From a virus: DNA of 34,160 nt. Shown here in pieces: positions 1,545 to 17,448 of the stretch. The notes beneath the pieces were generated by a model. It did not search any database. It saw only the letters and a list, made by a program, of their open reading frames with translations, and had not been told where the DNA came from. Position 1 is the stretch's first letter, and each line of letters opens with the position of its first letter. Where the stretch lies: positions 1-34,160 of IMG/VR virus record IMGVR_UViG_3300030450_001962. One strand, 5' to 3'. The position numbers were made by a program, and so were the translations under genes.

Positions 1545-1833
1545 TGTTTCCAAAAGATCCATATTGACCTTCTTTACCTTTGCCGTTAACCCAGACAACT
1601 TTTACTTCTATTTCTTTTTGCTGCTCATAGTTCCAAACTGTTCCATCAACAACTTTGTTTGGATCATCGAGCAAACTCATTAAGTAATTGCAAAAAGGAG
1701 TAATTGATTCAGCAGGAATTTTTAGTCCTAGCTGACTAGGCCAATCTCCTTCTGTGTCATATTGGTTCTTTCCTACTGACCAAGTAATTGGATGAGGAAG
1801 AGCAGGTTGGAATTTGTACTCGTTTCTTGGCAT
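1465..1833 (-). CDS. Single-stranded-DNA-binding protein (SSB-like)
   Basis: The start MPRNEYKFQPALPHP at 1833 is preferred to an upstream ATG at 1890, which would add an unrelated hydrophobic tail. The product is 122 residues. The body is beta-rich with conserved aromatic residues (W, Y, F) of the kind expected in an OB fold. The C-terminus ends DSEEIPF, the acidic tip with terminal aromatic that SSB proteins use to recruit replication and repair enzymes. It is the last gene of the recombination operon, just after the ERF annealing protein, where phage SSBs usually sit. The OB fold is inferred from composition and context; the acidic tip is seen directly. Confidence 0.7.
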   Translation of the reverse strand: MPRNEYKFQPALPHPITWSVGKNQYDTEGDWPSQLGLKIPAESITPFCNYLMSLLDDPNKVVDGTVWNYEQQKEIEVKVVWVNGKGKEGQYGSFGNINPQKTEAQRQALDGRRSSDSEEIPF

Positions 1834-1912
1834 TTTTTTGATTAGATAAATTGCGGTTTTTGAGTTGATGAAGAACTTGCTGTGCAGCATGTTCGGCTGC
1901 TTCTGGTGTCAT
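1757..1912 (-). CDS. Possible small protein overlapping the SSB start (51 aa)
   Basis: An ATG at 1912, 4 nt past the TGA stop of the ERF gene, opens a 51-codon frame beginning MTPEAAEHAAQQVLHQLKNR. The first ~26 residues, a good amphipathic helix, fill the gap between the ERF and SSB genes. The rest runs in another frame inside the SSB gene (77-nt overlap). Tight spacing and helix quality favour translation, perhaps as a leader that couples ERF to SSB. The long overlap and poor C-terminal half argue against it. Confidence 0.3.
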   Translation of the reverse strand: MTPEAAEHAAQQVLHQLKNRNLSNQKNAKKRVQIPTCSSSSNYLVSRKEPI

Positions 1913-2617: not shown

Positions 2618-2675
2618 GTGGTTGATGTGTACTATTTAATCTTAATAAGCTAATAACTTATTGTCAATAAGATAA
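2618..2675 (-). promoter_or_regulatory. Operator-promoter cassette A (erf) with leader octamer
   Basis: Read leftward: TTGACA (2667-2662), 17-nt spacer, TAAGAT (2644-2639), then the leader octamer TCAACCAC (2625-2618) 2 nt before the erf ATG. The two 17-bp operator positions (2659-2675 over the -35 and 2637-2653 over the -10) are recognisable but more diverged than in other cassettes. The -35 sits at the end of the rusA coding sequence. Confidence 0.75.
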
Positions 2676-3122: not shown

Positions 3123-3814
3123 TAAAAAACCTCAATTTTTTCTTCAAAATTTTCCCAAGCTTTCTTCCATTTGAGACGACAAGTTAAAGGGTCTTGTTCT
3201 TCTCCGAAAACACACTTTCCCGGTCTTGACCAAATTGTTCTGCAACTATCAACAACAATGCCATGTTGATTTGCTAAAGCGTCAACGTAACTTCCAAGTT
3301 GAGCATCTGTTGAATATGGCCTTGCGTTTTTCTTAGATTGGGTTTTTAAATCTAATAAAACTAACTTTCCTTTGTCGTGGTCATATCCCAAAAGGTCTAA
3401 TTGACCGCCTATAGATTTTTCCAAATCTGCCAGCATATACTCGACTGCCCACGGCTCAAAGTTTTGCCAAAAAGGATCTTCAAGAAGTGGTGTCACCCAT
3501 TCTTGATAGTCACCTGCGTCTGGATTTTTTTCTCCTAACATCCTCTGCTGTAAACACCAATGCACCTTCTCTCCTCTCGGTTGCCAAATGTGCCTGTATC
3601 TTTCAATGTTTACTAAAGCCTCTGGACTCTTTTGACTTGCAATCTGTGTTGTAGAAAAAGCCAACCATTCGCCTGTTGGCTCCCAACAATATTGATGCCG
3701 TTCCTCATCCCTATACATGGGAAGAGGAGTAAGTTTCAAATGACTCCAAGGTGGGTCTCGATGCAAGCTAGGGTTGTTGCTTAATTCTTGATATTTCACT
3801 CGGTGAGACTCCAA
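3122..3814 (-). CDS. PD-(D/E)XK nuclease, RecB/Cas4-like
   Basis: A 230-residue protein. The catalytic signature is clear: GGQLDLLGYD (metal-binding Asp at about residue 139), LVLLDLKTQ (the D-x-K motif at about 154-156) and a following Gln/Tyr block (DAQLGSYVDAL) as in RecB-like nucleases. An upstream His (EKVHWCLQQ) matches the extra His of this group. Such enzymes degrade DNA ends and supply single strands to an annealing protein, and this one lies in the same operon as ERF and RusA. It overlaps the preceding winged-helix gene by 19 nt and its stop overlaps the rusA start. The exact subfamily (exonuclease or nickase) cannot be told by eye. Confidence 0.85.
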   Translation of the reverse strand: MESHRVKYQELSNNPSLHRDPPWSHLKLTPLPMYRDEERHQYCWEPTGEWLAFSTTQIASQKSPEALVNIERYRHIWQPRGEKVHWCLQQRMLGEKNPDAGDYQEWVTPLLEDPFWQNFEPWAVEYMLADLEKSIGGQLDLLGYDHDKGKLVLLDLKTQSKKNARPYSTDAQLGSYVDALANQHGIVVDSCRTIWSRPGKCVFGEEQDPLTCRLKWKKAWENFEEKIEVF

Positions 3815-4083
3815 AGGTGTTCTCTTTTTCCATAAATCCCCTGAACAAAAGAATCAGTTTTAACTAATTTTCCTGCTGTTGTTAAGTCACTGATTGCTCT
3901 TCTTATTGAGGTAATCGGATAACTCCAACCAAGCTCTTCAAGTTCAATTAAAATTTTCGAGGGGCTTAATGGGGTTGATGCTCTTTTAAAGCAATTTAAA
4001 ATTGCTTGTTCTTGTGTTTTAGCTTTGGAATGAGATTCAGCAAGTTCTGAACCTGTTTCTTCTGTGGTGTTGTAGTAGCTCAT
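3796..4083 (-). CDS. Small winged-helix protein
   Basis: A 95-residue protein. After a polar N-terminus (about 25 residues) comes a winged-helix pattern: AILNCFKRASTPLSPSKIL (helix 1 and 2), TSIRRAISDLTTAGKLVKT (recognition helix then wing), and a C-terminal strand YGKREHLWSLTE. It resembles the short winged-helix proteins that phages keep in replication operons. Regulation or a DNA-loading role are both possible; the sequence does not decide. It overlaps the nuclease gene by 19 nt and lies 4 nt after the preceding stop, so it is co-translated with the recombination genes rather than separately promoted. Confidence 0.65.
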   Translation of the reverse strand: MSYYNTTEETGSELAESHSKAKTQEQAILNCFKRASTPLSPSKILIELEELGWSYPITSIRRAISDLTTAGKLVKTDSFVQGIYGKREHLWSLTE

Positions 4084-4469: not shown

Positions 4470-4741
4470 GTTGGAAAATCCTTAGGGTCGATTATTTCCA
4501 CTGACTCGGTTGGTGGGGTTGATTCTCTTGCAAGGTTCTTAAATCTGACACCTTCGTAACCTCTTGGAAAGATCGCAAGGTTTGAGTTTGCATCATCAAT
4601 ACATCTTTGGGCCCCGGGACTTGGTTGATCTAAATCTGCCAACGTCCATAAAGATCTCTCAGGGTTTGATGGGTTAGGCGATTTAAGCCCCCGTTTCAAC
4701 AATTTTATGATCGAGGCTCTGTTGTATAAGGGTTCCATCAA
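4466..4741 (-). CDS. Hypothetical protein (91 aa)
   Basis: The frame starts MMEPLYNRASIIKLLKRGLK, and its ATG overlaps the TGA of the upstream gene (ATGA at 4741-4738). It is soluble and rich in Pro and Asn, with the motif WTLADLDQPSPGAQRCIDDAN. I do not recognise a family. It lies between the DnaD-like protein and the small basic proteins of the replication operon, with overlaps at both ends, so it is very probably expressed and probably linked to replication. Confidence 0.6.
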   Translation of the reverse strand: MMEPLYNRASIIKLLKRGLKSPNPSNPERSLWTLADLDQPSPGAQRCIDDANSNLAIFPRGYEGVRFKNLARESTPPTESVEIIDPKDFPT

Positions 4742-5325
4742 TCGAAGCCTCTGGAGGCCGTAAAGAGGCGTTGTGCAGGATGTCCTGTTGGTGGTTCAGG
4801 ATCAAAAGGCCATTTGTTTTTATTGCTAACGCAGAAATTTTCGTAATTCTTCAACGTGATGCTTTGCCACTCATTTGCAATTGCAAGAGTGATTTGATCT
4901 TTTACAGCATCTTCACCATATTTCTTTTTTATCCCTATCAAACCTTTTTCACCCATCAACAAATTAAAAGCTGCTTCTGTCTTTTTCCCTTTCTTTGAGT
5001 GCCAAAAATCAACGATCAAGCTAGAGGCAGTTTCAAGTTCAAAAGGGATCAGGTCAGCACTAAACTTAAACCTCTTTTTTTTCAAATTTTCTTTTTCCTT
5101 ATTTATACTATTAGGTACTCTATTAGTATTAGATAAAATACCTCCCTCTTTTTTTGTCTCTCTCTCTCTTTCGTTCGGTATTTTAAGGGTATCACATGTG
5201 TCAAGCCCATTTTTCCTGTTTTCAAGGATCATGTTTATATGAGCAGTCATAGATCTGCTTTTGGGCTTTTCGGCGTTTAAGTAGTGATAGTTTTCTGGGT
5301 AGATTCTTATGCTGTTTGTGGTCAT
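4738..5325 (-). CDS. RHH-like N-terminus joined to a DnaD-like C-terminal domain; candidate replication initiator or helicase loader
   Basis: A 195-residue protein, first gene of the recombination-replication operon. Residues 5-35 (IRIYPENYHYLNAEK, then SRSMTAHINMILEN) follow the strand-helix-turn-helix pattern of ribbon-helix-helix proteins. A polar linker (about 40-85) leads to a C-terminal domain (about 86-165). The stretch KKYGEDAVKDQITLAIANEW and the following ITLKNYENF resemble the DnaD/DnaB2 pattern, in which a Tyr-containing helix ends in a Trp. DnaD-like proteins help load replicative helicases, and a DNA-binding domain fused to such a module suggests an origin-binding initiator. Both domain assignments are by eye and need profile searches. 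The gene has its own strong promoter. Confidence 0.55.
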   Translation of the reverse strand: MTTNSIRIYPENYHYLNAEKPKSRSMTAHINMILENRKNGLDTCDTLKIPNERERETKKEGGILSNTNRVPNSINKEKENLKKKRFKFSADLIPFELETASSLIVDFWHSKKGKKTEAAFNLLMGEKGLIGIKKKYGEDAVKDQITLAIANEWQSITLKNYENFCVSNKNKWPFDPEPPTGHPAQRLFTASRGFD

Positions 5326-5339
5326 TGTGTACTAGATCT

Positions 5340-5395
5340 GTGGTTGATTTGTGTAAGGAACGTATTCATTATGCAGCACAGGTTTTTAATGTCAA
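5340..5395 (-). promoter_or_regulatory. Promoter B of the recombination operon, with leader octamer but no -10 operator
   Basis: Read leftward: TTGACA (5395-5390), 16-nt spacer, CATAAT (5373-5368), leader octamer TCAACCAC (5347-5340) 14 nt before the ATG at 5325. Unlike the other cassettes, the spacer and -10 are unrelated to the 17-bp palindrome. Only a diverged copy touches the -35 (AATCCTATTGACA), so this operon may escape the repression that the other units share. Confidence 0.7.
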
Positions 5396-5429
5396 TAGGA
5401 TTATCTGATAAGAAAGTTATTTGTTTTTT

Positions 5430-5457: not shown

Positions 5458-5489
5458 TAGCTTGACCTGAAGCTCAGAGGCGTTTGCCA

Positions 5490-5684
5490 ATGACCACTAG
5501 GACGCAACAAATAAAAAAAGACCTCCAATGTTATGGAGTCGATCCTTTCCAGATTGCTGCTGAAGCAATTGAGCGGGGTGACAGGTTGGCTCTTCAAGTG
5601 GCTCGTTTAGAAAAGGTAATTAATCAGATAAAGCCCGATCTAACAAAAGCCTCACAACATTGCTCCGGCTTGTGCCAGCTTTAG
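5490..5684 (+). CDS. Small hypothetical protein (64 aa) divergent from the replication operon
   Basis: The ATG at 5490 is chosen over a TTG at 5484 because AGAGG lies 9 nt upstream of it. The product starts MTTRTQQIKKDLQCYGVDPF and continues with a long amphipathic helix (IAAEAIERGDRLALQVARLE). Its last 65 nt run convergently into the RHH gene on the other strand. It is one of only three early rightward genes and has its own promoter with a consensus -10 box. A gene divergent from an early operon often encodes a regulator, but no DNA-binding motif is visible here. Function unknown. Confidence 0.55.
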   Translation: MTTRTQQIKKDLQCYGVDPFQIAAEAIERGDRLALQVARLEKVINQIKPDLTKASQHCSGLCQL

Positions 5685-5778
5685 TTGCCATTTCGTTAAT
5701 TTTGTCGTTAACTTCTGGAGTGACGCTGACCTGAATAATTTCGCTCCAAAGTTCACTCCCTCTTGATTTGTTTGGCAT
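5620..5778 (-). CDS. Ribbon-helix-helix (Arc/CopG-type) DNA-binding protein (52 aa)
   Basis: An ATG at 5778 opens 52 codons. Residues 13-20 (EIIQVSVT) form the DNA-contacting strand, PEVNDKINEMATKAG the first helix, and TSRSNVVRLLLDRALSD the turn and second helix, matching the core RHH pattern including the G-x-S-R-S/N turn. RHH proteins bind palindromic operators as dimers, often cooperatively on neighbouring sites. The gene is preceded by a copy of the phage's own 17-bp operator with a decayed half (5792-5808). This makes autoregulation plausible and makes the protein the best visible candidate for the factor that reads these sites. The fold call is firm; the link to the operators is inference. 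Confidence 0.8.
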   Translation of the reverse strand: MPNKSRGSELWSEIIQVSVTPEVNDKINEMATKAGTSRSNVVRLLLDRALSD

Positions 5779-5791
5779 GTTTAGAACCTTT

Positions 5792-5808
5792 TAATCTTAA
5801 TAATATAA
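5792..5808 (-). promoter_or_regulatory. Half-preserved operator upstream of the RHH gene
   Basis: The 17-mer TAATCTTAATAATATAA keeps one perfect half of the palindrome (TAATCTTA) and the leftward -10 TAAGAT at 5799-5794, but the position 17 nt further upstream holds no -35 (TCTCGG). The leader also lacks the TCAACCAC octamer. Expression is therefore expected to be weak or to depend on an activator. Confidence 0.5.
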
Positions 5809-5846
5809 TAAAAAGACCGAGAAGCCATTCAGCCCCTCAGTCTTTT
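5809..5846 (-). terminator. Probable terminator of gene 5862-6098
   Basis: Read leftward, AAAAGAC-x-GAG and CTC-x-GTCTTTT pair over 10 bp with one mismatch around a 14-nt loop, and the second arm runs into a T-rich tract towards 5800. It also separates this gene from the RHH gene. Confidence 0.5.
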
Positions 5847-5861: not shown

Positions 5862-6098
5862 TCACCTATAGGAGACACCCTCGAGGTGTTTTGTGCAGGA
5901 GTACTTAAGACCGTGTCTTTTTGCTTCAGCTACCATTGCTTCTTTTTCTTCTAAAGAGTAGGCGTAATCATCCCAGTCTTTTTCAGTAACAATGTGCCAG
6001 TAATAAACAGGGTTTTGTTCCCTTTCGAGCTCTTCTTTGTGGAGTTGGTCTTGCTCTTCTTCGTATCTAAGAAGTGCAGTTTCATGGAAGTCAGACAT
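5862..6098 (-). CDS. Small acidic hypothetical protein (78 aa)
   Basis: It starts MSDFHETALLRYEEEQDQLH two bases after the leader octamer of cassette C. The N-terminal 30 residues are a highly charged helix; the middle contains YYWHIVTEKDWDDYAYSLEEK and a second helix follows. No membrane segment or known motif. It is the only gene between its own operator-promoter and terminator, so it is an independently controlled early product. Function unknown. Confidence 0.65.
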   Translation of the reverse strand: MSDFHETALLRYEEEQDQLHKEELEREQNPVYYWHIVTEKDWDDYAYSLEEKEAMVAEAKRHGLKYSCTKHLEGVSYR

Positions 6099-6100
6099 TT

Positions 6101-6161
6101 GTGGTTGATGTTTGAACTGATTTAATCTTAATAATATTAGTGCATAATGTCAATAAGATTA
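6101..6161 (-). promoter_or_regulatory. Operator-promoter cassette C with leader octamer
   Basis: Read leftward: TTGACA (6153-6148), 17 nt, TAAGAT (6130-6125), octamer TCAACCAC (6108-6101). The -35 lies in operator copy 6145-6161 and the -10 in operator copy 6123-6139 (one base off the perfect palindrome). The copies are offset by 22 bp, about two helical turns. Confidence 0.85.
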
Positions 6162-6201: not shown

Positions 6202-6540
6202 TTAATCGTATGTATCAAAATTAATGGGTTGACCTGTCCAAGGTTCGATTGTTCCTCTGTACGTTTCGTAAGCGGTTTCGCTTCCGTCATACTCGTCAAC
6301 ATTAATTTTTTTCCTGAACTCTGGGCCTCTTTTGGTTGATTCAAGGTCTGGAAGTTTTGTTCCTGCTTGTCCATATCCGTCATGGGTGTGAATGATGCTA
6401 GGAACTTTTTTAAACCATACGGTTTTTTTTGTTCGCCTTGTGACTTGGAAGAAATCAACAAGGCTCATAGTTGCTCCCCATTCCATCATGCAGATTTGAC
6501 CTTCTACAAATTCAAGAGGTTGAAGAATTGTTGTTGTCAT
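6202..6540 (-). CDS. Hypothetical protein (112 aa) in a single-gene operator unit
   Basis: The product starts MTTTILQPLEFVEGQICMME and contains VDFFQVTRRTKKTVWFKKVP followed by a Gly/Tyr block (HDGYGQAGT). The phrase 'DFxQVxRRTxKxVWxK' resembles a family of short phage proteins of unknown function that I recall from other tailed phages. No catalytic motif is visible. The gene stands alone between cassette D and a terminator touching its stop codon. It is one of the longer members of the string of small units. Confidence 0.65.
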   Translation of the reverse strand: MTTTILQPLEFVEGQICMMEWGATMSLVDFFQVTRRTKKTVWFKKVPSIIHTHDGYGQAGTKLPDLESTKRGPEFRKKINVDEYDGSETAYETYRGTIEPWTGQPINFDTYD

Positions 6541-6548
6541 TTGTAAGC

Positions 6549-6603
6549 GTGGTTGATTACCTCTTAATCTTATTAAGATTATTCCTTAATGTCAATAAGA
6601 TTA
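6549..6603 (-). promoter_or_regulatory. Operator-promoter cassette D with leader octamer
   Basis: Leftward TTGACA at 6595-6590, 17-nt spacer, TAAGAT at 6572-6567, octamer TCAACCAC at 6556-6549, 8 nt before the ATG at 6540. Operator copies are 6587-6603 (over the -35) and 6565-6581 (over the -10, a perfect palindrome), offset by 22 bp. Confidence 0.88.
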
Positions 6604-6643: not shown

Positions 6644-6808
6644 TTAGTTCTTTAAAAGTGTTCTTCTGACTTGTTCTTCTTGATAGCGGTTGATCATGTT
6701 TTGGGTTTTGATCTTGGCTTGTCCTGTTACCTTGTCTAGCTGGGCTGTAAGCTCTTGGATTTGGTTAGCAATGTTGAAGTCAGAAAAAGTATGAATTGGA
6801 AGATTCAT
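6644..6808 (-). CDS. Small helical protein (54 aa) in a single-gene operator unit
   Basis: An ATG at 6808 opens 54 codons ending TAA at 6646-6644. The sequence starts MNLPIHTFSDFNIANQIQEL and is mostly one helix rich in Gln, Lys and Arg (LTAQLDKVTGQAKIKTQNMI). No membrane segment or motif. It is bounded by cassette F, 10 nt past the leader octamer, and by a terminator starting at its stop codon, which is strong evidence that this tiny frame is a real gene. Function unknown; an inhibitor or adaptor peptide acting early in infection is a reasonable guess. Confidence 0.75.
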   Translation of the reverse strand: MNLPIHTFSDFNIANQIQELTAQLDKVTGQAKIKTQNMINRYQEEQVRRTLLKN

Positions 6809-6818
6809 TGTGTAAGTC

Positions 6819-6873
6819 GTGGTTGATTACTTCTTAATCTTATTAAGATTATTGGATAATGTCAATAAGATTA
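6819..6873 (-). promoter_or_regulatory. Operator-promoter cassette F with leader octamer
   Basis: Leftward TTGACA at 6865-6860, 17-nt spacer, TAAGAT at 6842-6837, octamer TCAACCAC at 6826-6819. Operator copies are 6857-6873 and 6835-6851 (the latter a perfect palindrome). It closely matches cassette D over the whole element, including the bases around the octamer. Confidence 0.88.
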
Positions 6874-6900
6874 ATTATTTGTAACAGATCTGTAATATTA

Positions 6901-6966
6901 GGGGCTTGGTCTGACATGTGGCAATGAAGAACCTCAACCACGGGATTCTTCAAATCAGCAAGCCCC
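6901..6966. ncRNA. Long intergenic stem-loop whose apical loop carries the leader octamer or its complement
   Basis: Outer arms GGGGCTTG (6901-6908) and CAAGCCCC (6959-6966) pair perfectly. After a 2-nt bulge, CTGA (6911-6914) pairs with TCAG (6955-6958). An inner hairpin GAAGAA (6926-6931) / TTCTTC (6946-6951) extends by CC/GG past one bulged A to a 9-nt loop at 6934-6942. On the plus strand the loop reads TCAACCACG; on the minus strand it reads CGTGGTTGA, complementary to the octamer in eight early leaders. No good promoter or T-run was found next to it, so its transcription is unproven and the feature type is provisional. A DNA cruciform or origin element is the main alternative. Confidence 0.5.
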
Positions 6967-6986
6967 GTTCTTATTCTAATTGAGAT

Positions 6987-7018
6987 TAGGGTAAATAGGG
7001 TAAATAGGGTAAATAGGG
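6987..7018. repeat. Tandem 9-bp repeats TAGGGTAAA (3.6 copies)
   Basis: Three full copies and one partial copy of TAGGGTAAA lie between the stem-loop at 6901-6966 and the terminator at 7020-7044, in a stretch with no gene. Direct repeats next to a stem-loop could be protein-binding iterons, for instance at an origin, or simple slippage. Confidence 0.7.
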
Positions 7019-7052: not shown

Positions 7053-7211
7053 TTAGAAGATTGCGGCGACTAGGGCGGTTGCTCCTAGTAAAATTAGAGC
7101 TGATCTTAATTCCTCGGTGAGGTTTTGGATTTGCTCTGCCTGATCTTCGATGAGTGGAACACATTCTGCAATAATTTCAGCTTTTGTGTTTTTCTCAGTG
7201 ATTGAAGTCAT
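7053..7211 (-). CDS. Small tail-anchored membrane protein (52 aa)
   Basis: An ATG at 7211 opens 52 codons ending TAA at 7055-7053. The N-terminal 37 residues form a coiled-coil-like helix (EIIAECVPLIEDQAEQIQNL), and the C-terminus (SALILLGATALVAAIF) is a single transmembrane helix. This coil-then-TM order resembles XhlA-type haemolysin/holin accessory proteins, though it is shorter than that family; other tail-anchored phage effectors look the same. It stands alone between the cassette at 7224-7275 and a strong terminator. Confidence 0.75.
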   Translation of the reverse strand: MTSITEKNTKAEIIAECVPLIEDQAEQIQNLTEELRSALILLGATALVAAIF

Positions 7212-7223
7212 TTGAAGAGTCGT

Positions 7224-7275
7224 GTGGTTGACTTTTTAATCTTAATAAGATTAGTGGATAATCTCAATAAGATTA
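7224..7275 (-). promoter_or_regulatory. Operator-promoter cassette H with leader octamer
   Basis: Leftward TTGAGA at 7267-7262 (one base off TTGACA), 17-nt spacer, TAAGAT at 7244-7239, octamer TCAACCAC at 7231-7224, 12 nt before the ATG. Operator copies are 7259-7275 and 7237-7253 (perfect). Because the -35 reads TTGAGA, the upstream copy is closer to a full palindrome than in other cassettes. Confidence 0.85.
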
Positions 7276-7298
7276 GGAGCTATTGAAACAATTTGTAA

Positions 7299-7315
7299 TA
7301 ATCTCAATAAGATTA
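7299..7315. promoter_or_regulatory. Third, isolated copy of the 17-bp operator
   Basis: TAATCTCAATAAGATTA, identical to the upstream operator of cassette H and centred 40 bp further from the gene. It lies 15 nt beyond the stop of gene 7330-7749. No -10 lies at the right distance, so it may serve as an auxiliary binding site. Confidence 0.75.
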
Positions 7316-8228: not shown

Positions 8229-8353
8229 TTTAGGGATTCGCAAGCTAGTTGGATTTTGTTGACCTCGCAATCTTGGCGGGTCATGTCGGAAAGGGATGAA
8301 TTAACACCCCAAAAAAGAACCGCCATGAAGGCGGTAAAAAAGAGGAATCTCAT
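8225..8353 (-). CDS. Tiny secreted or membrane-anchored protein (42 aa) overlapping a terminator
   Basis: The ATG at 8353 overlaps the TGA of gene 8350-8631, and its own TGA overlaps the ATG at 8228; both junctions are ATGA. The product starts MRFLFFTAFMAVLFWGVNSS, a signal-peptide-like hydrophobic segment, followed by a short polar tail with two Cys (residues 29 and 37) that could form a disulfide outside the membrane. The hydrophobic codons coincide with an intrinsic-terminator-like hairpin (8311-8335). The double coupling favours a real gene. Function unknown. Confidence 0.6.
   Translation of the reverse strand: MRFLFFTAFMAVLFWGVNSSLSDMTRQDCEVNKIQLACESLK
8311..8335 (-). terminator. Terminator-like hairpin inside the 42-residue gene
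   Basis: Leftward stem ACCGCC-TTCAT-GGCGGT (8335-8319), then TC and six Ts (8316-8311), 15 nt after the stop of the DUF2958-like gene. It lies within the coding frame 8225-8353, so it may reduce transcription of the three downstream genes unless ribosomes cover it. Confidence 0.65.
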
Positions 8354-8631
8354 TTTGTTAATTCCTCGAAATCTGTTGTCTCAAAAGAAAGATCTCTTTC
8401 AACTTTTAGACCGAATGGACCTTGGATCCCTTCGATCTCTTTCATGTTGAAATAGCCCATTTCTTTTTCTTGGCCTTCAACGTATCCGAAGCAGTCGCCT
8501 GTTTCTGGATCGTATTCCATAACGTACCAAGTCCAGTAGCTCCAAGGGGTGAACCATTTCACATACGCTTTGTTAGTAGCTGAATGAATGGCGGGAAGCT
8601 TTTTCTCAAGTGCTTTTGTTAAAAGTTTCAT
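8350..8631 (-). CDS. DUF2958-family protein
   Basis: A 93-residue protein matching the DUF2958 pattern: MKLLTKALEKKLPAIHS at the N-terminus, KWFTPWSYWTWYVMEYDPET, FGYVEGQEKEMGYFNMKEI and GPFGLKVERDLSFE. The family is widespread on plasmids and phages and has no established function as far as I know. Length is normal for the family. It is the first gene of a four-gene translationally coupled unit under cassette J. Confidence 0.85.
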   Translation of the reverse strand: MKLLTKALEKKLPAIHSATNKAYVKWFTPWSYWTWYVMEYDPETGDCFGYVEGQEKEMGYFNMKEIEGIQGPFGLKVERDLSFETTDFEELTK

Positions 8632-8637
8632 GGGCCT

Positions 8638-8692
8638 GTGGTTGATGGCTTTCTAATCTTAATAAGATTATGGGATAATGTCAATAAGATTA
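8638..8692 (-). promoter_or_regulatory. Operator-promoter cassette J with leader octamer
   Basis: Leftward TTGACA at 8684-8679, 17-nt spacer, TAAGAT at 8661-8656, octamer TCAACCAC at 8645-8638, 6 nt before the ATG. Operator copies are 8676-8692 and 8654-8670 (perfect palindrome), 22 bp apart. The upstream copy overlaps the stop codon of gene 8690-9028. Confidence 0.88.
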
Positions 8693-9092: not shown

Positions 9093-9251
9093 TCAGTCGA
9101 TCATTTCCTCGACTGCTTTTTGTAATTTGGCTGTTTCTTTGACGAGTTCGTTAGCGGTTTCAACCATTCGGTCAAGATCTGCTTGGATTTTTTCGTCATG
9201 TCTTTTCATATCTCCAAGGAGGATATTTAAAGATTCAGCAAGTTGTCCCAT
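9093..9251 (-). CDS. Small coiled-coil protein (52 aa) in a single-gene operator unit
   Basis: An ATG at 9251 opens 52 codons ending TGA at 9095-9093. The product starts MGQLAESLNILLGDMKRHDE and is almost entirely one amphipathic helix with heptad-like spacing (KIQADLDRMVETANELVKET), so it should form a coiled-coil dimer or oligomer. No motif identifies its role. It lies between cassette L and the strong terminator at 9067-9084, the same monocistronic layout as 6644-6808 and 7053-7211. Confidence 0.75.
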   Translation of the reverse strand: MGQLAESLNILLGDMKRHDEKIQADLDRMVETANELVKETAKLQKAVEEMID

Positions 9252-9393
9252 GAATTAAGTCCTTTGTGGTTGACTCGTTAATCTTAATAAGATTATTGCC
9301 TTGGGTCAAGCCCTCCCTTAACCATTCACCATGTTTAACTTGCTGTTCTCTGATCTTTCTGCAATGCTCGCAATTACATAAATAATCCTGCAT
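9235..9393 (-). CDS. Possible small Cys-rich protein running into a promoter (52 aa)
   Basis: An ATG at 9393 opens 52 codons beginning MQDYLCNCEHCRKIREQQVK. The C-x-C-x2-C cluster next to a His resembles a zinc-binding knuckle. The second half of the frame reads through cassette L and past the start of the next gene by 17 nt. Either a real gene has had a promoter cassette inserted at its 3' end, or only the first ~30 codons are ancestral. The upstream region has only a weak promoter match. Confidence 0.35.
   Translation of the reverse strand: MQDYLCNCEHCRKIREQQVKHGEWLREGLTQGNNLIKINESTTKDLIHGTTC
9266..9309 (-). promoter_or_regulatory. Operator-promoter cassette L with leader octamer, single operator
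   Basis: Leftward TTGACC at 9309-9304, 17-nt spacer, TAAGAT at 9286-9281, octamer TCAACCAC at 9273-9266. The -10 lies in a perfect operator palindrome (9279-9295); the operator normally over the -35 is absent. AGGA about 8 nt before the ATG makes this one of the few leaders with a Shine-Dalgarno match. Confidence 0.82.
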
Positions 9394-9462: not shown

Positions 9463-10662
9463 TTGACTTCAATACAAGATTTAAAAAGCGACCATAAAAA
9501 CGCTCGTAAAAGGACAGACCGTTCTTCTTCCTTAATCAAAGAATCCTTAGAGAAATTTGGGGCGGCTCGTTCAATAGTTATAGATGAAGAAAACAGAATC
9601 CTTGCTGGTAATGGAACCATAGAAGGAGCAAAAGCAGCAGGTATAAAAAACCTTCGAGTAATAGAAACAGACGGTAAAGAAATTATTGCTGTCAAAAGAA
9701 CTGGACTAACAGAAGAGGACAAGGTTGGTTTAGCTCTTGCTGATAATAGAACTTCTGATTTATCCGAATGGGATGCTGAAATGCTTAAGCAGCTTTCAGA
9801 AGAACAGGATTTAGAACCTTGGTTTAATGAAGGTGATCTTACTGAACTGATAGGAGAACCAGAAAAAGATGAAGGCTTAACCGATCCTGATGATGCTCCT
9901 AAAGCACCAGAAGAACCAATAACAAAAGAAGGTGATTTATATATTCTTGGAAACCATCGTCTTCTCTGTGGTGACTCTACAAATATTGAGCATGTAGAAA
10001 CTTTAATGAATGGAAAGAAAGCAGATATGGTTTTTACAGATCCTCCTTATGGATGCAATATTAAGGGAGGAGCCAATAGTAGTAATTTAATTGCAGGAGA
10101 TTTAACTCAAGTAGCTATTCCATTTTCTTTTGATTTAGCAGTTGACAGAGCAACAAAGGATGATGCTAGATTTTATTTTTGTGGTTCAGAAGGAAATATC
10201 TCTTTATATGGCAAATTGTTTGATCGGTTTTTACATCAACTACCAAGACATCTAATTTGGATGAAGAATGGTTTTGTAATGAAACCCAATAATTACCATA
10301 ATCAATATGAAATTATCTTTTTTGGTTATAAGCCAAAAGGCGGTGGATTAAATCATTGGTACTCAGGTCGTACAGAATCAGAAGCTTCTGATATTTGGGT
10401 TATTAAAAGAGATCCATCAAAAGGATATTTACACCCAACTCAAAAACCGATAGAACTGCCAGAAAGAGCAATTACTAATAGTTCGCCTGTTAATGGTCTG
10501 GTTTATGAACCTTTTGGTGGTTCTGGCTCGACTCTTATTGCTTGTCAAAAGAATAATAGAGGATGTTATTCGATGGAGTTAGATCCTAAATATTGCGATG
10601 TCATCGTCAAAAGGTGGGAGGATTTTACTGGCAATAAAGCAAAACATGTAATATCTAACTAA
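9463..10662 (+). CDS. ParB/sulfiredoxin-like domain fused to a DNA methyltransferase
   Basis: A 399-residue protein. Residues ~3-90 match the ParB N-terminal nuclease-like domain found at the front of phage methyltransferases (KNARKRT, LIKESLEKFGAARSIVIDEE, ILAGNGTIEGAKAAG, DNRTSDLSEWD). The second part is an amino-methyltransferase: DPPYG at 193-197 (catalytic motif IV) precedes PFGGSGST at 350-357 (AdoMet motif I), and this order marks the beta class (N6-adenine or N4-cytosine). No restriction enzyme is adjacent, so it probably modifies phage DNA against host restriction or marks it for packaging. No in-frame ATG exists near the N-terminus; TTG at 9463 is the best start. It opens the late operon and abuts the small terminase by TAATG. 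Confidence 0.88.
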   Translation: MTSIQDLKSDHKNARKRTDRSSSLIKESLEKFGAARSIVIDEENRILAGNGTIEGAKAAGIKNLRVIETDGKEIIAVKRTGLTEEDKVGLALADNRTSDLSEWDAEMLKQLSEEQDLEPWFNEGDLTELIGEPEKDEGLTDPDDAPKAPEEPITKEGDLYILGNHRLLCGDSTNIEHVETLMNGKKADMVFTDPPYGCNIKGGANSSNLIAGDLTQVAIPFSFDLAVDRATKDDARFYFCGSEGNISLYGKLFDRFLHQLPRHLIWMKNGFVMKPNNYHNQYEIIFFGYKPKGGGLNHWYSGRTESEASDIWVIKRDPSKGYLHPTQKPIELPERAITNSSPVNGLVYEPFGGSGSTLIACQKNNRGCYSMELDPKYCDVIVKRWEDFTGNKAKHVISN

Positions 10663-10982: not shown

Positions 10983-12343
10983 ATATTCTCCAAGAATTAC
11001 CAGCAGGCCATGTTTTATATCCTCAAGGTTTTACTGCGTTTGAAGTTTCGCCAGAAAAACGAATACAACAAACAGATTTAATTCGTCAGCGTATTTTTGA
11101 CGGCTTATTACATTATCAGCAAAATATATGTAAAGACCTAGAACATAGAATTGTTGGATTTTGTGCAGGTTATGGAGCAGGAAAAACAAGAACGCTTGCA
11201 GCATGGACTACTTTATGTTCTCTTGATAACCCCAATACAGTTGGGGCTGTTTTCGCTCCTACTGGCGCTTTGGTTCGTGATGTTTTGCAGCGTTCCCTTG
11301 AGGATTTTTGGGAAAATCATGCAGTTAAATTTGAATACAGAGCATCCCCACTCCCTGAGTACAAATTAAATTTACCAAATGGTGAAGTTACTATTCTTTG
11401 CCGTTCAATGGAATCATGGCAGAGGATTATTGGAGTTAACCTCAGTTTCATTGGCTCAGATGAGTTAGACACCACCAAAGCAGATATAGGACAAAGAGCT
11501 ATTGAAAAATTCCTAGGTAGATTAAGAGCAGGAAATAGAAGACAATTAGGTCTTTTTTCTACTCCCGAAGGTTTCGGTACGTTCTATAATTTATTTGTCC
11601 GAGAAGGTCACAAGGAAGACCGAGCACTCTACAAAGCTCGAACGGCTGACAACCCTTACTTGCCGCCTGACTTTCTACAAGCATTACTCGAGAATTATCC
11701 AGCTTCTTTAGTTAAAGCCTATACAGAAGGTGAGTTTTGTAATCTCCAAACGGGTGCAGTTTACGACCGTTTTGATCGAGCAAAACATGTAACTAAAGAT
11801 ATGCCTGACCACTCAGAAGAAATTATTCGAGTTGGTTGTGATTTTAATGTTGGAAACTGCAACGCAGCAATTGGAGTAATTAGCAAAGGACATCTATACA
11901 TTTTTGATGAGATAGGTGGAGCACATGACACAGACTCAATGGCTGACCAATTGCGAGAAAAATTTCCGCACAGTACGATTTACGCATATCCAGACGCTTC
12001 AGGTGGAAACAGATCAACAAATGCTGCTAAAACCGACATCCAAATATTGCAGCAAAGAAGAATTGTCAATTTATCAGGTGCAAGCAATCCTTACGTCAGG
12101 GATAGAGTTGCAGCAGTTCAAGCAATGTTGCTTAATGGAAAAGAAGAAATAAGATTGCATATTCATCCACGTTGTAAGAAAACAATTGAGTCTTTAGAGC
12201 TTCAAGCGTATGCAGAGGATGGCACCCCAGATAAAACCCAAAACTTAGATCACATGTCCGATAGTCTTGGCTATCTCATCTGGAAGGAGTTCAATCCATT
12301 ACACATGAACTCAGGAAGAGGTACAGGAATTAGAATTTATTAG
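10973..12343 (+). CDS. terL: Terminase large subunit (packaging ATPase-nuclease)
   Basis: A protein of about 456 residues; the start is TTG, either at 10973 or at 10979 where it overlaps the stop of terS (TTGA). The ATPase domain has Walker A GYGAGKT (residues 66-72) and Walker B FIGSDELD (acid pair at 163-164), with the coupling motif in QLGLFSTPEG. The nuclease (RNase H-like) domain has its three acidic positions in VGCDFNVGN (D290), YPDASG (D341) and DHMSDSLGYLIW (D426/D430). It drives headful or site-specific packaging. Full length, no lesion. Confidence 0.95.
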   Translation: MLLNILQELPAGHVLYPQGFTAFEVSPEKRIQQTDLIRQRIFDGLLHYQQNICKDLEHRIVGFCAGYGAGKTRTLAAWTTLCSLDNPNTVGAVFAPTGALVRDVLQRSLEDFWENHAVKFEYRASPLPEYKLNLPNGEVTILCRSMESWQRIIGVNLSFIGSDELDTTKADIGQRAIEKFLGRLRAGNRRQLGLFSTPEGFGTFYNLFVREGHKEDRALYKARTADNPYLPPDFLQALLENYPASLVKAYTEGEFCNLQTGAVYDRFDRAKHVTKDMPDHSEEIIRVGCDFNVGNCNAAIGVISKGHLYIFDEIGGAHDTDSMADQLREKFPHSTIYAYPDASGGNRSTNAAKTDIQILQQRRIVNLSGASNPYVRDRVAAVQAMLLNGKEEIRLHIHPRCKKTIESLELQAYAEDGTPDKTQNLDHMSDSLGYLIWKEFNPLHMNSGRGTGIRIY

Positions 12344-13827: not shown

Positions 13828-16503
13828 ATGACAACAACTGTTCCTGTAGGTGATGGAATACCGCCTGAGTTTTATCGCAATGCGATAGACCTTAATCGGT
13901 TTAGTAATAGCGTTTCCAAAAAGCTGGTTACTTCATATAACAATGTGATGTTAAAAGCTGTTGAGAAATTAAAAATCATTGAAGGGCAACCATTAAACGA
14001 AAGACCTGCTTATAAGACTGCAAGATTAAGAGCGTTAATAAAACAAACAAAAGAGAGTTTAAATTCTTGGGCTAATGGCAGCGTTGACGAATTAATTGGT
14101 GAATTGGAAGGTGTTGCAAAAGTACAGGCAGGATTTGTTGAGAGTCAATTAAAGAAATCAATTCCCAAAGGCATGGCTGAAAAGATCCATGACCAGATTG
14201 GTTATTCTTTTAGGTCTGTTGCCGTTAGTCCTTCATTTGCCAAGTCTGTTGTAACTACAGATCCAACAGCTTTAAATATTGCTGTTTTAAGAAGTGATTT
14301 AGCAGGAGCAAAAACACCAAAAGGAACTTTTAAATTAACTGCTAAAGAAGGACAAACAATAACGCTACCTAATGGAAACACGGTTAAGAAATCATTTTTA
14401 GGGATAGCAGAAGCAGAAGCAAAACGATTAAACCAAGTGGTTAGGAGTGGGCTTTTATCTGGTGATACAACTCCCGAAATTGTTAGAGAGTTAGTTGGAA
14501 ATTTAAAGAAAGACCAAAAAGGAAGCTTAAGCCAACTACTTGCACAAGGAGGAGCTGCAACTAAAAGTGCAAATAATCAGGTGATGACGATTGTTAGAAC
14601 GACTGTGAATCAAGTTACAAATACAGCAAGCCAAGCTGTTTATAAAGCTAATCCTGACTTGACGGAGGAATATCGTTATGTTGCAACCTTAGATTCTCGA
14701 ACTTCTCCTGTTTGTAGAGATTTAGATGGTCAAGTTTTTAAATACAACGAGGGACCAGTACCGCCTCAACATTTTGGTTGCAGGTCTACAACTGTAGCTG
14801 TTGTTAATTATAAAAAATGGGGTTTTACTCCACCTCCTGCTGGAAAGAGGGCCAGTGTCGATGGGCCTGTTCCTGCAAATACAACTTATGGAAAATGGTT
14901 ATATGGTGAACGTGCAAAAGGCTCAAAATTTAAACCCGGAGCAGAACAAATTGCAGCATTAGGAGAACAGAAAGCAAAATATTTTAATCGCTTGTCTAAC
15001 AAATATGGTCCGGACCAAGCGTTAAAGAAATTAATTAGAGAAGACAATACAGAAGTTTCTTTAGCTCAATTGCAAAAGAGATATGGAAAGCCTGAAGATA
15101 TAAAACCAAAAGCTAAAAAGACAAAACTGCTTTCAGATAAAGAGAAAAAATCACTTGCTGCATTTGAAAAGATCAAACCACCTTCAGAAGCTTTGATTGC
15201 TAAAGAAGGAAAGTATATGACTGAGGCGGAAAAGAAAGGGCTTGTCCCATATAAGCCTTTAACAGCAGCACAAAAGAAAATGGTTGATAAGTCTGTTGTA
15301 GAAACTCAGGCGAAAAAGCTTGATAAAGAAATGGCAGCAATAGACAAACAAATAAAAGAATCTAAAGCGAAATTGAAAGCATTAGAGACTTCTGGAGAAT
15401 TAAAATCAGAAATTGCAACTCTTCAAAAGTTAGATGATTCTACAAAAAACAATCTAGAGAACTTTAAGAAAGCAGATTTGACAAATAAAAAACATCAGAA
15501 TTGGTTCAACAATCAAAAGGCTTTTAATAGCAAGTTAATTCCAAAAGGTAAATACGATACGATCACACCAAAAGAACTTGGCAAGCTTGTAGAGAAAAAA
15601 GAGATAGTTAAGCTTCAGCTGAAATATGATAAAGCCTTTGAAAAATCATTGCTTCCTGCAAAACCTGTTAAGCCTCGTGCTCCGTTAAAGAAATGGGATG
15701 ACAAGTCATTTATTCAGAAAAATATTGGAAGCACTGACACCAAGACACCACCACCACCTCGGGTGGCTGTTAGAAATGGAAAGAAAAAAACTGATGACCT
15801 TTATTGGGAGGCTAATACTAAAAATGCTGTCAAAGACTATGACATGTCGGTTGCTCAACTAAAGGATGCACAAGAGCAAATAAGTGATTGGACAGGAAGC
15901 AGTTTCTATAATATTCGAGCAGTTCAAATAAAACAGGCACAATCTGTAGGGAAACAATTAAATCCAAATGAGATTGGTCTTCTAAATAGCAGGATAAGAG
16001 ATAACAGATTCATGACTAAAGCCCAAGTTAATTTAATAGCAAGAAACGCCGACAAGATGGAAAGATATATCGCAAACACACCTAAATGGAATGGTTCACC
16101 ATTTGATGCTGAGTTTAAAAATGCTTTCTTAGATAACCAACCTAATGGAACAGTCTTTAGGGGGATGACCGTTCACAAAAAAAGTATTGTTGATGAAGTT
16201 CTTAAAAACATGGAAAGAGGTGAAGCAGTTACGACAATGGAGAGTTGGTCAAGTGATCCAAGAACTGCCTTGAAATTTGCAAAAGGAGAGATTGGAGATG
16301 GTAATCATGGAATTGTATTTAGACAAGTTAATAAACATGGAGCACCAATTGAACATTTAAACGGAATGAATGAAAATGAAATCTTGCAACCAAGTGGGGT
16401 TAGATATAAAATTATCAGCAAAAAAACAGAGAATTGGACGTTTGAGCGACCCGGAATTACAGAAGAACACTCTATGACTGAAGTTGTATTACAAGCTATT
16501 TAA
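13828..16503 (+). CDS. Mu F-like minor head protein with a C-terminal ADP-ribosyltransferase domain
   Basis: An 891-residue protein, far longer than a plain Mu F-like protein. Residues ~195-330 hold the phage Mu F/SPP1 gp7 core: TIVRTTVNQVTNTASQ, then TLDSRTSPVCRDLDG (D289, C296) and HFGCRST (H315, C318), a likely metal-binding set. Residues ~400-640 are a Lys-rich coiled-coil linker. The C-terminal ~200 residues carry the arginine-specific ADP-ribosyltransferase triad: VFRGMTV (R778), ESWSSDP (S806-W-S808) and NENEILQ (E849-x-E851). As part of the head it could be injected with the DNA and modify host proteins, as T4 Alt does; injection and target are inference. It overlaps the convergent gene 16496-16681 by 8 nt. 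Confidence 0.88.
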   Translation: MTTTVPVGDGIPPEFYRNAIDLNRFSNSVSKKLVTSYNNVMLKAVEKLKIIEGQPLNERPAYKTARLRALIKQTKESLNSWANGSVDELIGELEGVAKVQAGFVESQLKKSIPKGMAEKIHDQIGYSFRSVAVSPSFAKSVVTTDPTALNIAVLRSDLAGAKTPKGTFKLTAKEGQTITLPNGNTVKKSFLGIAEAEAKRLNQVVRSGLLSGDTTPEIVRELVGNLKKDQKGSLSQLLAQGGAATKSANNQVMTIVRTTVNQVTNTASQAVYKANPDLTEEYRYVATLDSRTSPVCRDLDGQVFKYNEGPVPPQHFGCRSTTVAVVNYKKWGFTPPPAGKRASVDGPVPANTTYGKWLYGERAKGSKFKPGAEQIAALGEQKAKYFNRLSNKYGPDQALKKLIREDNTEVSLAQLQKRYGKPEDIKPKAKKTKLLSDKEKKSLAAFEKIKPPSEALIAKEGKYMTEAEKKGLVPYKPLTAAQKKMVDKSVVETQAKKLDKEMAAIDKQIKESKAKLKALETSGELKSEIATLQKLDDSTKNNLENFKKADLTNKKHQNWFNNQKAFNSKLIPKGKYDTITPKELGKLVEKKEIVKLQLKYDKAFEKSLLPAKPVKPRAPLKKWDDKSFIQKNIGSTDTKTPPPPRVAVRNGKKKTDDLYWEANTKNAVKDYDMSVAQLKDAQEQISDWTGSSFYNIRAVQIKQAQSVGKQLNPNEIGLLNSRIRDNRFMTKAQVNLIARNADKMERYIANTPKWNGSPFDAEFKNAFLDNQPNGTVFRGMTVHKKSIVDEVLKNMERGEAVTTMESWSSDPRTALKFAKGEIGDGNHGIVFRQVNKHGAPIEHLNGMNENEILQPSGVRYKIISKKTENWTFERPGITEEHSMTEVVLQAI

Positions 16504-16681
16504 GATAGGCAGGTTTTTCGGAAAGATTTATTGTTTCTGTTTTAACTCCTTGCTCTTTTAAATAATTGTCCAGATCTTTGTCAATTTCTTTATTTGTTCT
16601 GTCATCATCAGGGTCAATGTTGTAGCTAATCCCAATAGCAGTAAAGGGACTCTTATCGAGATAGGGTTCTTTTTTTGCCAT
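16496..16681 (-). CDS. Counter-strand small acidic protein inside the late operon (61 aa)
   Basis: The start MAKKEPYLDKSPFTAIGISY at 16681 is preferred. Frames from 16702 or 16756 would begin at or before the -10 box of the promoter that drives the gene. The product is soluble, with an acidic middle (NIDPDDDRTNKEIDKDLDNY) and no known motif. It is the only leftward gene after 9.4 kb and converges on the ADP-ribosyltransferase-bearing head gene with an 8-nt overlap. Its promoter is an operator-type promoter like those of the early genes, so it should be controlled with them rather than with the head genes. Immunity against the neighbouring transferase is one possible role; nothing in the sequence proves it. 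Confidence 0.65.
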   Translation of the reverse strand: MAKKEPYLDKSPFTAIGISYNIDPDDDRTNKEIDKDLDNYLKEQGVKTETINLSEKPAYLK

Positions 16682-16701
16682 GAGCGTGGCTGCATTTGAC
16701 A

Positions 16702-16732
16702 TTATCTTAATAAGATTAGTGACTTTTGTAAA
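16702..16732 (-). promoter_or_regulatory. Operator-promoter cassette N inside the late region
   Basis: Leftward TTTACA at 16732-16727, 17-nt spacer, TAAGAT at 16709-16704, embedded in an operator copy (16702-16718) that differs from the perfect palindrome at one base. No upstream operator and no TCAACCAC leader octamer. It opposes the start of the scaffold gene at 16750. Confidence 0.78.
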
Positions 16733-16749
16733 GGTACTTGCTACGCTAA

Positions 16750-17448
16750 ATGGCAAAACTTACGGTTTTTATGTCCGAAGAACAAAATCAAGAGGCTACG
16801 CCTGTTGAGACTCCAAACGCTGGAGATGTTGATAAGTTAAAACAAAGCATTGAGAATCTTGAGAAGAAAAATTACGAATTGATTGGAAAACTCAAGAAAC
16901 AAGAGTTAATAGAAGTTCCTGATGATTACGAAAAACTCAAGGAATTTAAACGTAATGCAGAACAATCTCAACTTGAGCAGCAAGGCAAATATGGAGAAGC
17001 CAAGCAAGCTCTTGAGCAACAATATCGAGAAAAATCTGCAGCCGACAAAAAAAGAATTGAAGAACTTGAAACAAAAGCAAGAGAGCTGGAACTTATTTCT
17101 CCCGCCGTACAAGCCTTGGCGGAGATAGTTCACGATCCAACTTTGGTATTAAATAATTTCTTACCAAAAGATAAGATCGAAATTGAAAACGGTTCTCCAG
17201 TTATTGTTGACGGGTATGAACGAATCCCTGTCTCTGATTGGGCTAAGAGTAAATTACCTGAATATATTTTAAAGCAACCAAAGCCTCAAGGTGGTGGTGC
17301 TCCTGCGGGTAGATCTAGCGGAGGTGAAATTCCTGCTGGAACTAAAAACCCATTTGCACAAGAAACTTTTAATATTACTGAACAAATGAGGCTATATAGA
17401 ACAGATAAAGATCTATATGATCGCTTGAAAAATGCAGTTAAACGCTAA
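16750..17448 (+). CDS. Capsid scaffold-like protein
   Basis: A 232-residue protein; starts at 16750 (MAKLTVF) and 16771 (MSEEQNQEATP) are both possible, and the second looks more like a scaffold N-terminus. It is acidic and dominated by a coiled coil (residues ~30-115, for example IENLEKKNYELIGKLKKQEL), followed by a Gly/Pro-rich hinge (PQGGGAPAGRSSGGEIPAG) and a short basic C-terminal helix ending DRLKNAVKR. That layout, and the place immediately before the major capsid gene, are those of phage scaffolding proteins. No protease domain is visible. Confidence 0.75.
   Translation: MAKLTVFMSEEQNQEATPVETPNAGDVDKLKQSIENLEKKNYELIGKLKKQELIEVPDDYEKLKEFKRNAEQSQLEQQGKYGEAKQALEQQYREKSAADKKRIEELETKARELELISPAVQALAEIVHDPTLVLNNFLPKDKIEIENGSPVIVDGYERIPVSDWAKSKLPEYILKQPKPQGGGAPAGRSSGGEIPAGTKNPFAQETFNITEQMRLYRTDKDLYDRLKNAVKR

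Follow-up and report, generated by a model that had tools for sequence, protein, structure and literature searches.

Phages, plasmids and archaeal viruses are well known to encode ribbon-helix-helix (RHH) repressors. Two that share size and fold class with the protein considered here, the Arc repressor of phage P22 and the CopG plasmid copy-number repressor (structural neighbours 1bdv, 2cpg and 1ea4), are autoregulated through a palindromic operator lying over the promoter, as we propose below for our candidate, and act at one or two promoters. Among archaeal viruses, the small RHH regulators SvtR and AvtR are described as repressing their own gene and binding several sites of the viral genome, four in the case of SvtR and eight potential ones in that of AvtR (PMC5569661), and in cyanobacteria TrcR of Anabaena is presented as an autoregulated RHH repressor with homologues in two cyanophages (PMC10272220). 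Dispersed phage palindromes of 17 bp without a regulator have also been described previously, as in the Cluster O mycobacteriophages (Corndog), where a 17-bp dyad repeat occurs more than 30 times, no integrase is present and the function of the repeat is given as unknown (PMC4351075); in the Cluster A mycobacteriophages one phage repressor is said to serve many dispersed stoperator sites (PMC9283540). The early-transcription regulators of uncultured cyanosiphoviruses are hardly known, and for the Prochlorococcus siphovirus P-SS2 no identifiable repressor was reported (PMC2784084). Our search of the literature on cyanophage RHH proteins, siphovirus promoter palindromes and operators, RHH repressors of early promoters and Prochlorococcus siphovirus repressors found no prior report among the papers listed, and the 17-mer described below, written with T as its central base, did not turn up in the open-access papers searched. 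In the present locus a single small gene, RHH1, is linked with a definite set of operators and, judging from sequence comparison, its product is probably an autoregulated RHH repressor of the phage early genes, both binding and repression being putative.

The stretch analysed (the window) is a single IMG/VR virus record of 34,160 bases. Because its terminase shares 52-53% identity with the terminases of the Synechococcus phages S-H1 and KBS-S-2A and the Prochlorococcus phages MED4-117 and MED4-184, we regard it as a cyanosiphovirus-like phage. The genes between about 1.5 and 9.3 kb lie mostly on the minus strand and comprise an early/recombination set including Erf, RusA and a PD-(D/E)XK exonuclease, while the structural genes occupy the plus strand; a ParB-like domain fused to a DNA methyltransferase (9463-10662, plus strand) adjoins the terminase genes. 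Most of the early genes form cassettes of one gene with a sigma-70-type promoter to themselves, and the 17-mer palindrome TAATCTTANTAAGATTA overlies the -10 of these promoters, the hexamer TAAGAT being contained in it; a second, degenerate copy, most often TAATCTTATTGACATTA, usually lies over the -35. At up to three mismatches the 17-mer has 32 matches on the two strands of the window, against 0.36 expected, and five pairs are spaced by 22 bp (6123/6145, 6565/6587, 6835/6857, 7237/7259 and 8654/8676). The operators assigned to promoters are the following.

2637-2653, minus strand: operator variant overlying the -10 in the promoter of the Erf gene (1917-2615)
6123-6161, minus strand: operator pair, 6123-6139 on the -10 and 6145-6161 on the -35, promoter of gene 5862-6098
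6565-6603, minus strand: operator pair, promoter of gene 6202-6540
6835-6873, minus strand: operator pair, promoter of gene 6644-6808
7237-7315, minus strand: three operators (7237, 7259, 7299), promoter of gene 7053-7211
8654-8692, minus strand: operator pair, promoter of gene 8350-8631
9279-9295, minus strand: single operator on the -10, with -35 TTGACC, promoter of gene 9093-9251
16702-16718, minus strand: operator overlying the -10 of a small gene (MAKKEPYLDK..., 61 residues; 16496-16756 with its promoter) among the late head genes

A small ORF follows an operator at the position of the last of these in three of the four long relatives examined (G002, G003, G008).

Compared with Arc and CopG, the operator here is a new 17-mer, present at roughly one and a half dozen sites, with hardly any outside the early region. 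SvtR and AvtR resemble RHH1 as proposed in being small RHH regulators of viruses, a likeness of size, fold class and proposed role, and differ from it in acting on archaeal promoters, with no cassette-wise sigma-70 promoters. The Corndog palindromes differ in sequence, about a third of them lie inside genes, and no regulator is assigned to them. Stoperators are described as asymmetric sites bound by a monomeric two-domain repressor, the immunity repressor of temperate phages; TrcR, likened to RHH1 by its description, is a host gene whose published targets are translation-related.

An earlier note on this DNA, made from the letters alone, had picked out a small frame with a full RHH core, and the frame is borne out by comparison with related contigs, the core by a Pfam match.

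5620-5778, minus strand: RHH1, 52-residue ribbon-helix-helix protein, candidate regulator (PF01402 match, AF2 model, structural neighbours, purifying selection)
5792-5808, minus strand: putative autoregulatory operator variant TTATATTATTAAGATTA, 2 mismatches, 13 nt before the RHH1 ATG
5810-5842, minus strand: terminator-like hairpin and T-run of the preceding gene, abutting the RHH1 operator, read from the sequence

The translation of the ORF, MPNKSRGSELWSEIIQVSVTPEVNDKINEMATKAGTSRSNVVRLLLDRALSD, scores 22.4 bits against Pfam RHH_1 (PF01402; cut-off 20.5), a profile matched at E <= 0.01 by 8 of the 11 members of alignment A1, and its PHROG matches are CopG-like and Arc-like repressors. Across related contigs RHH1 has a median pS of 0.63 and pN of 0.28 (136 pairs), with values of 0.48 and 0.01 in close pairs such as L130/L131; since synonymous change is well above nonsynonymous, as expected under purifying selection, RHH1 is a real gene. 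The AlphaFold (AF2) model (pLDDT 80.6) has helices at residues 21-34 and 38-51; it is a monomer, the RHH strand forming only in the dimer, and structural Z stays below 6. The best Foldseek matches of this model are mostly RHH proteins (MazE6, CopG, ParG, NikR) at E >= 0.39, weak if taken alone; VIA-align places ORF56 (3ft7), CopG, PutA and Arc near the top (Z 5.7-5.4), and the PDB neighbours at Z 5.7 and below include CopG, PutA, Arc, AmrZ and NikR. When solved structures were searched by sequence with A1, one match below 0.001 came up, to the helices only of the protein Gogy, and it was not informative. By its sequence RHH1 is a CopG/Arc-type ribbon-helix-helix protein; residues Q16, S18 and T20, invariant in 11 of 11 sequences, are putative DNA-facing residues by analogy with other RHH proteins. 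A small gene on the plus strand (5484-5684; MTTRTQQIKKDL...) converges with RHH1, overlaps it and is kept in most operator-bearing relatives.

Public viral contigs were scanned from four different starting points, namely RHH1, the operator pair, the exonuclease and the protein encoded at 4738-5325. All 22 viral loci of the RHH1-alignment scan carry 2-13 sites (at most two mismatches); 40 composition-matched control palindromes gave a mean of 0.00-0.20 per locus, with 5 as the highest single count, and a wider RHH1 alignment yielded 26 loci and no further group besides the two, A and B, discussed below. The operator-pair scan returned 23 stretches on 21 contigs, 14 of which hold RHH1; the other seven (L024, L034, L048, L049, L071, L073, L080) have no genes from beyond the RHH1 slot and are uninformative, because their stretches end before it. 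Among the matches listed in the first operator scan, many of the single-site contigs probably reflect chance. In the exonuclease scan RHH1 was present in 25 of 39 loci (20 of group A and five of group B), all 25 with at least two sites, and 11 of the 14 loci without it stop short of the slot; the three that reach it (L175, L176, L178) have 0, 1 and 1 site. Neither RHH1 nor an operator site was found in the 21 distant loci examined (20 of group D, and L175) out of the 48 retrieved with the 4738-5325 protein. Related phages with the operators and no RHH gene, which had been named in advance as the observation that would speak against RHH1, were sought in the public viral contigs scanned without a counter-example appearing: no operator array whose sequence reaches the RHH1 slot lacks the gene.

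Twenty early genes of the window were then profiled over 20 group-A, five group-B and 16 D-type contigs. Group A consists of the RHH1-scan loci and the window, minus L134 (a near-copy of L133) and the truncated L032 and L140, and, because it was assembled by the RHH1 scan, the presence of RHH1 in it is by construction; the D-type set consists of the 20 group-D loci minus L193, L197, L201, L202, L203, L207 and L210 (all seven with neither RHH1 nor a site), plus L175, L176 and L178. RHH1 alone among the 20 genes follows the pattern 20/20 in A, 5/5 in B and 0/16 in D, the D-type contigs having relatives of the same recombination genes, no RHH1 and 0-1 sites. The co-occurrence of gene and 17-mer, proposed as a check in the earlier note, is seen in A (20/20) and D (0/16) and is blurred by group B, which keeps RHH1 with two or three sites. 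In the exonuclease tree (root not known) B stands beside most of D, and two changes in RHH1 are concordant with two changes in the operators (at least two sites); with only two independent pairs the sign test gives p 0.5, and co-inheritance could therefore also account for the association. A repeat search of the early region of L199, the D contig read closely, revealed no repeated promoter family. In INPHARED isolated phages RHH1 had no match except weak microvirus ones. No operator at up to two mismatches occurs in S-H1, KBS-S-2A (40,081/40,658 bases), MED4-117 (31,883/38,834) or MED4-184, the best RHH1-profile match among these being at E 0.011 in S-H1, and the four isolates show only that the RHH1/operator package is absent there.

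The upstream region of RHH1 had been described as keeping one intact half of the operator and no usable -35, and so it does: the right half of the variant at 5792-5808, TAAGATTA, is perfect and the left half matches at 6 of 8 positions, the bases at the -35 position, 17 upstream of the RHH1 TAAGAT, read TCTCGG, which is no -35, and the spacer is taken up by the T-run of the terminator-like hairpin that belongs to the gene before it. A variant of the operator (1-3 mismatches) lies within 110 nt upstream of RHH1 in 20 of 20 group-A genes, window included, and the idea of a feedback loop gains support from this conservation, as far as sequence can lend it. Random 110-mers from the same loci match as well in 2-11% of draws, a rate raised by the abundance of sites in these loci. 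The stronger point, compared with the presence of an upstream site, is its fixed form and position: in 16 group-A genes the variant is TTATATTAWTRAGATTA, 13-15 nt before the ATG, and in the other four it is TAATCTTAATAASATAA, 40-44 nt before it; in L143, L145 and L146 the site, by reading, extends into the end of the gene upstream.

Across the window and the 22 loci selected by RHH1, with the -35 defined as TTGACA at no fewer than five of six positions and near-identical contigs counted separately, 85 TTGACA-type promoters bear the operator; a 17-bp spacer leads to the operator TAAGAT in 81 of them, and the leader motif AACCAC follows in 74. The tandem copies 22 bp apart had been read as a mark of RHH cooperativity. 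They are not RHH-specific, since this distance follows from the -35/-10 spacing of sigma-70 promoters, and the pair (at most two mismatches) is missing from seven of the 22 RHH1 loci, namely L140, a 2-kb fragment, and the six of clade A2 (L138, L139, L143, L145 and L146, typed by sequence, and L144, typed by its spacings). In clade A2 the operator stays on the -10 at the same 17-bp spacing and the -35 is TGTACA-like, a sequence feature that suggests another sigma factor or an activator. The leader, in the form (TC)AACCAC, precedes the start codons of most early genes (e.g., 6549-6556, 6819-6826 and 8638-8645, GTGGTTGA on the plus strand) and has a possible role in translation.

Group B (five contigs: L167-L169, L171 and L172) keeps RHH1 (76.5-78.8 bits; 8007-8180 in L171) with the strand LQVSVT unchanged and the N-terminus altered, MPRKPEGSELW vs. 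MPNKxRGSELW. None of 17 early promoters chosen by -35, spacing and leader carries the operator, nor does a variant of it stand upstream of any of the five RHH1 genes; two or three sites remain elsewhere, three in each of two long records, outside early promoters. In place of the 17-mer the early promoters of the group (25 listed) have TGTATACTAANNNAGTCA at the -10, and their leader motif is GAACCAC; those of L171 (3215-11164) and L172 (1176-11162) share TTGACA-17-TATACT with TGTATACTAANNNAGTCA, which in these GTATACTAA promoters is possibly a separate operator. L171 also encodes, downstream of Erf (11901-12101), a 66-residue protein with an RHH-like C-terminal half, its NikA-like and RHH_1 matches both below cut-off; the corresponding ORF of the window (1757-1912) apparently lacks the RHH-like half. 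Group B is real evidence against the simple version of the scheme: either RHH1 changed its specificity, or its regulon shrank, or it never bound the 17-mer. We consider it possible, though doubtful, that the early promoters are modular and swapped by clade, a -10 palindrome read by RHH1 being combined with TTGACA or TGTACA, and that in group B the whole operator set of the early promoters gave way to TGTATACTAANNNAGTCA with spacing and leader kept, the operator of RHH1 itself lost and the second RHH-like protein present, that is, a regulon changing its regulator. If true, this would be a natural record of such a change. The sister clade, with the gene kept and the promoters changed, would offer a view of how the regulon of a phage comes to be rewired.

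The palindrome might instead be read by a host factor or be an extended promoter element of RNA polymerase, RHH1 having another job and being merely co-inherited. The two independent tree contrasts, the group-B contigs with RHH1 and no operators on their early promoters, and the inclusion of the -10 hexamer in the palindrome would all sit well with this explanation. Sigma-70, however, does not need the upstream half TAATCTTA, and when promoters were chosen by -35, spacing and leader alone, as a control for circularity, this half (at most one mismatch) was found in 33 of 42 TTGACA and 12 of 12 TGTACA promoters. Sites occur, moreover, away from a good -35, in front of RHH1 (20/20), and are absent from the four named Synechococcus or Prochlorococcus isolates and from the group-D phages that share the recombination genes, all of which makes the explanation an unlikely one. 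That RHH1 is the reader and acts as an activator, or as a repressor needing a partner such as the convergent protein 5484-5684 (plus strand), is improbable: a site over the -10 would fit occlusion, not activation, and the convergent gene, present in 19/20 A, 3/5 B and 0/16 D contigs, was not found in L141, L167 and L181, all with RHH1, its protein being without a match in Pfam or PHROG, even though RHH proteins can activate, as is described for AvtR (PMC5569661).

Two further proteins of the window are rival candidates for the regulator.

3796-4083, minus strand: winged-helix-like protein, rival regulator, rejected
4738-5325, minus strand: 195-residue rival regulator, not favoured; its N-terminus is RHH-like and its match to a primosomal protein weak
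5387-5403, minus strand: operator variant TAATCCTATTGACATTA, 3 mismatches, on the -35 of gene 4738-5325, with none on its -10

RHH1 had been singled out for carrying, alone among the compact DNA-binding proteins, a site in its own promoter, a distinction that it loses to gene 4738-5325 and the variant at 5387-5403. The 195-residue protein might accordingly be thought to bind the operator: helices are predicted at 10-19 and 26-36, after the N-terminal stretch (first 40 residues), and 19 of 20 group-A contigs have the gene, the twentieth (L146) being cut before it. It is disfavoured because all 16 D-type relatives, with their 0-1 sites, have it as well (as do 5/5 of group B), and because phages that share the operator differ in the N-terminal strand of this protein (SIRI, AIRI, NTPI, NVPI); Foldseek finds no RHH with its model, a poor one (mean pLDDT 66.7), and we hold this assignment to be highly improbable. 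The winged-helix protein, offered by the earlier note as an alternative, plausibly belongs to a DNA-binding fold class and is found in 18/20 A, 5/5 B and 0/16 D contigs if two different types are pooled. Its Pfam match is weak, however, and comparison rejects it, since a different protein replaces it in L043 and L052 and it is missing from L030, all three with operator arrays; the chance that it is the regulator is close to negligible.

An autoregulated repressor of the early genes is the simplest reading of RHH1. Upon phage entry, host RNA polymerase would fire the cassette promoters, and RHH1 would be made slowly, either from its weak promoter (no -35, variant operator) or by read-through of the preceding terminator. 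Accumulating RHH1 dimers would then fill both half-sites of each palindrome, mask the -10 and shut the cassettes off, and the weaker variant site before the RHH1 gene would set the final level of the protein. The poor operator in front of RHH1 and the lack of a -35 there suggest the slow build-up, and the position of the operators over the -10 and -35 is suggestive of repression; binding by RHH1, the direction of repression, the slow accumulation and the role in timing are what we infer. The 17-bp palindrome, with its two 8-bp halves, could have room for a pair of RHH dimers if the analogy with RelB holds; RelB dimers are described as binding adjacent repeats on one face (PMC2812701). A lysogeny-repressor role for RHH1 appears less likely from the gene content, since the tyrosine integrase PF00589, the only integrase type searched, is absent from seven long relatives (34.8-43.6 kb, possibly fragments).

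A 47-residue relative of RHH1 is encoded in a cell genome contig, that of Prochlorococcus sp. AG-402-M23 (L147, 10001-10144), close to an ORF resembling a recombinase and to what looks like a type I restriction-modification operon (ORFs read by eye). Its 20-kb locus holds no operator site, and operator matches in the genome are about as frequent as those of the reversed control pattern (6 vs. 5 per strand).

Between cassettes, a conserved stem region, GGGGCTTG...CAAGCCCC, with a degenerate operator (6972) lies at 6890-6990 on the minus strand of the window and at 4640-4740 in L021, and is possibly a small RNA. At L021 3652-3895 and at L171 6742-6900 and 8190-8395 a promoter is followed by a terminator-like end with no clear conserved ORF, and these units are candidate non-coding RNA cassettes.
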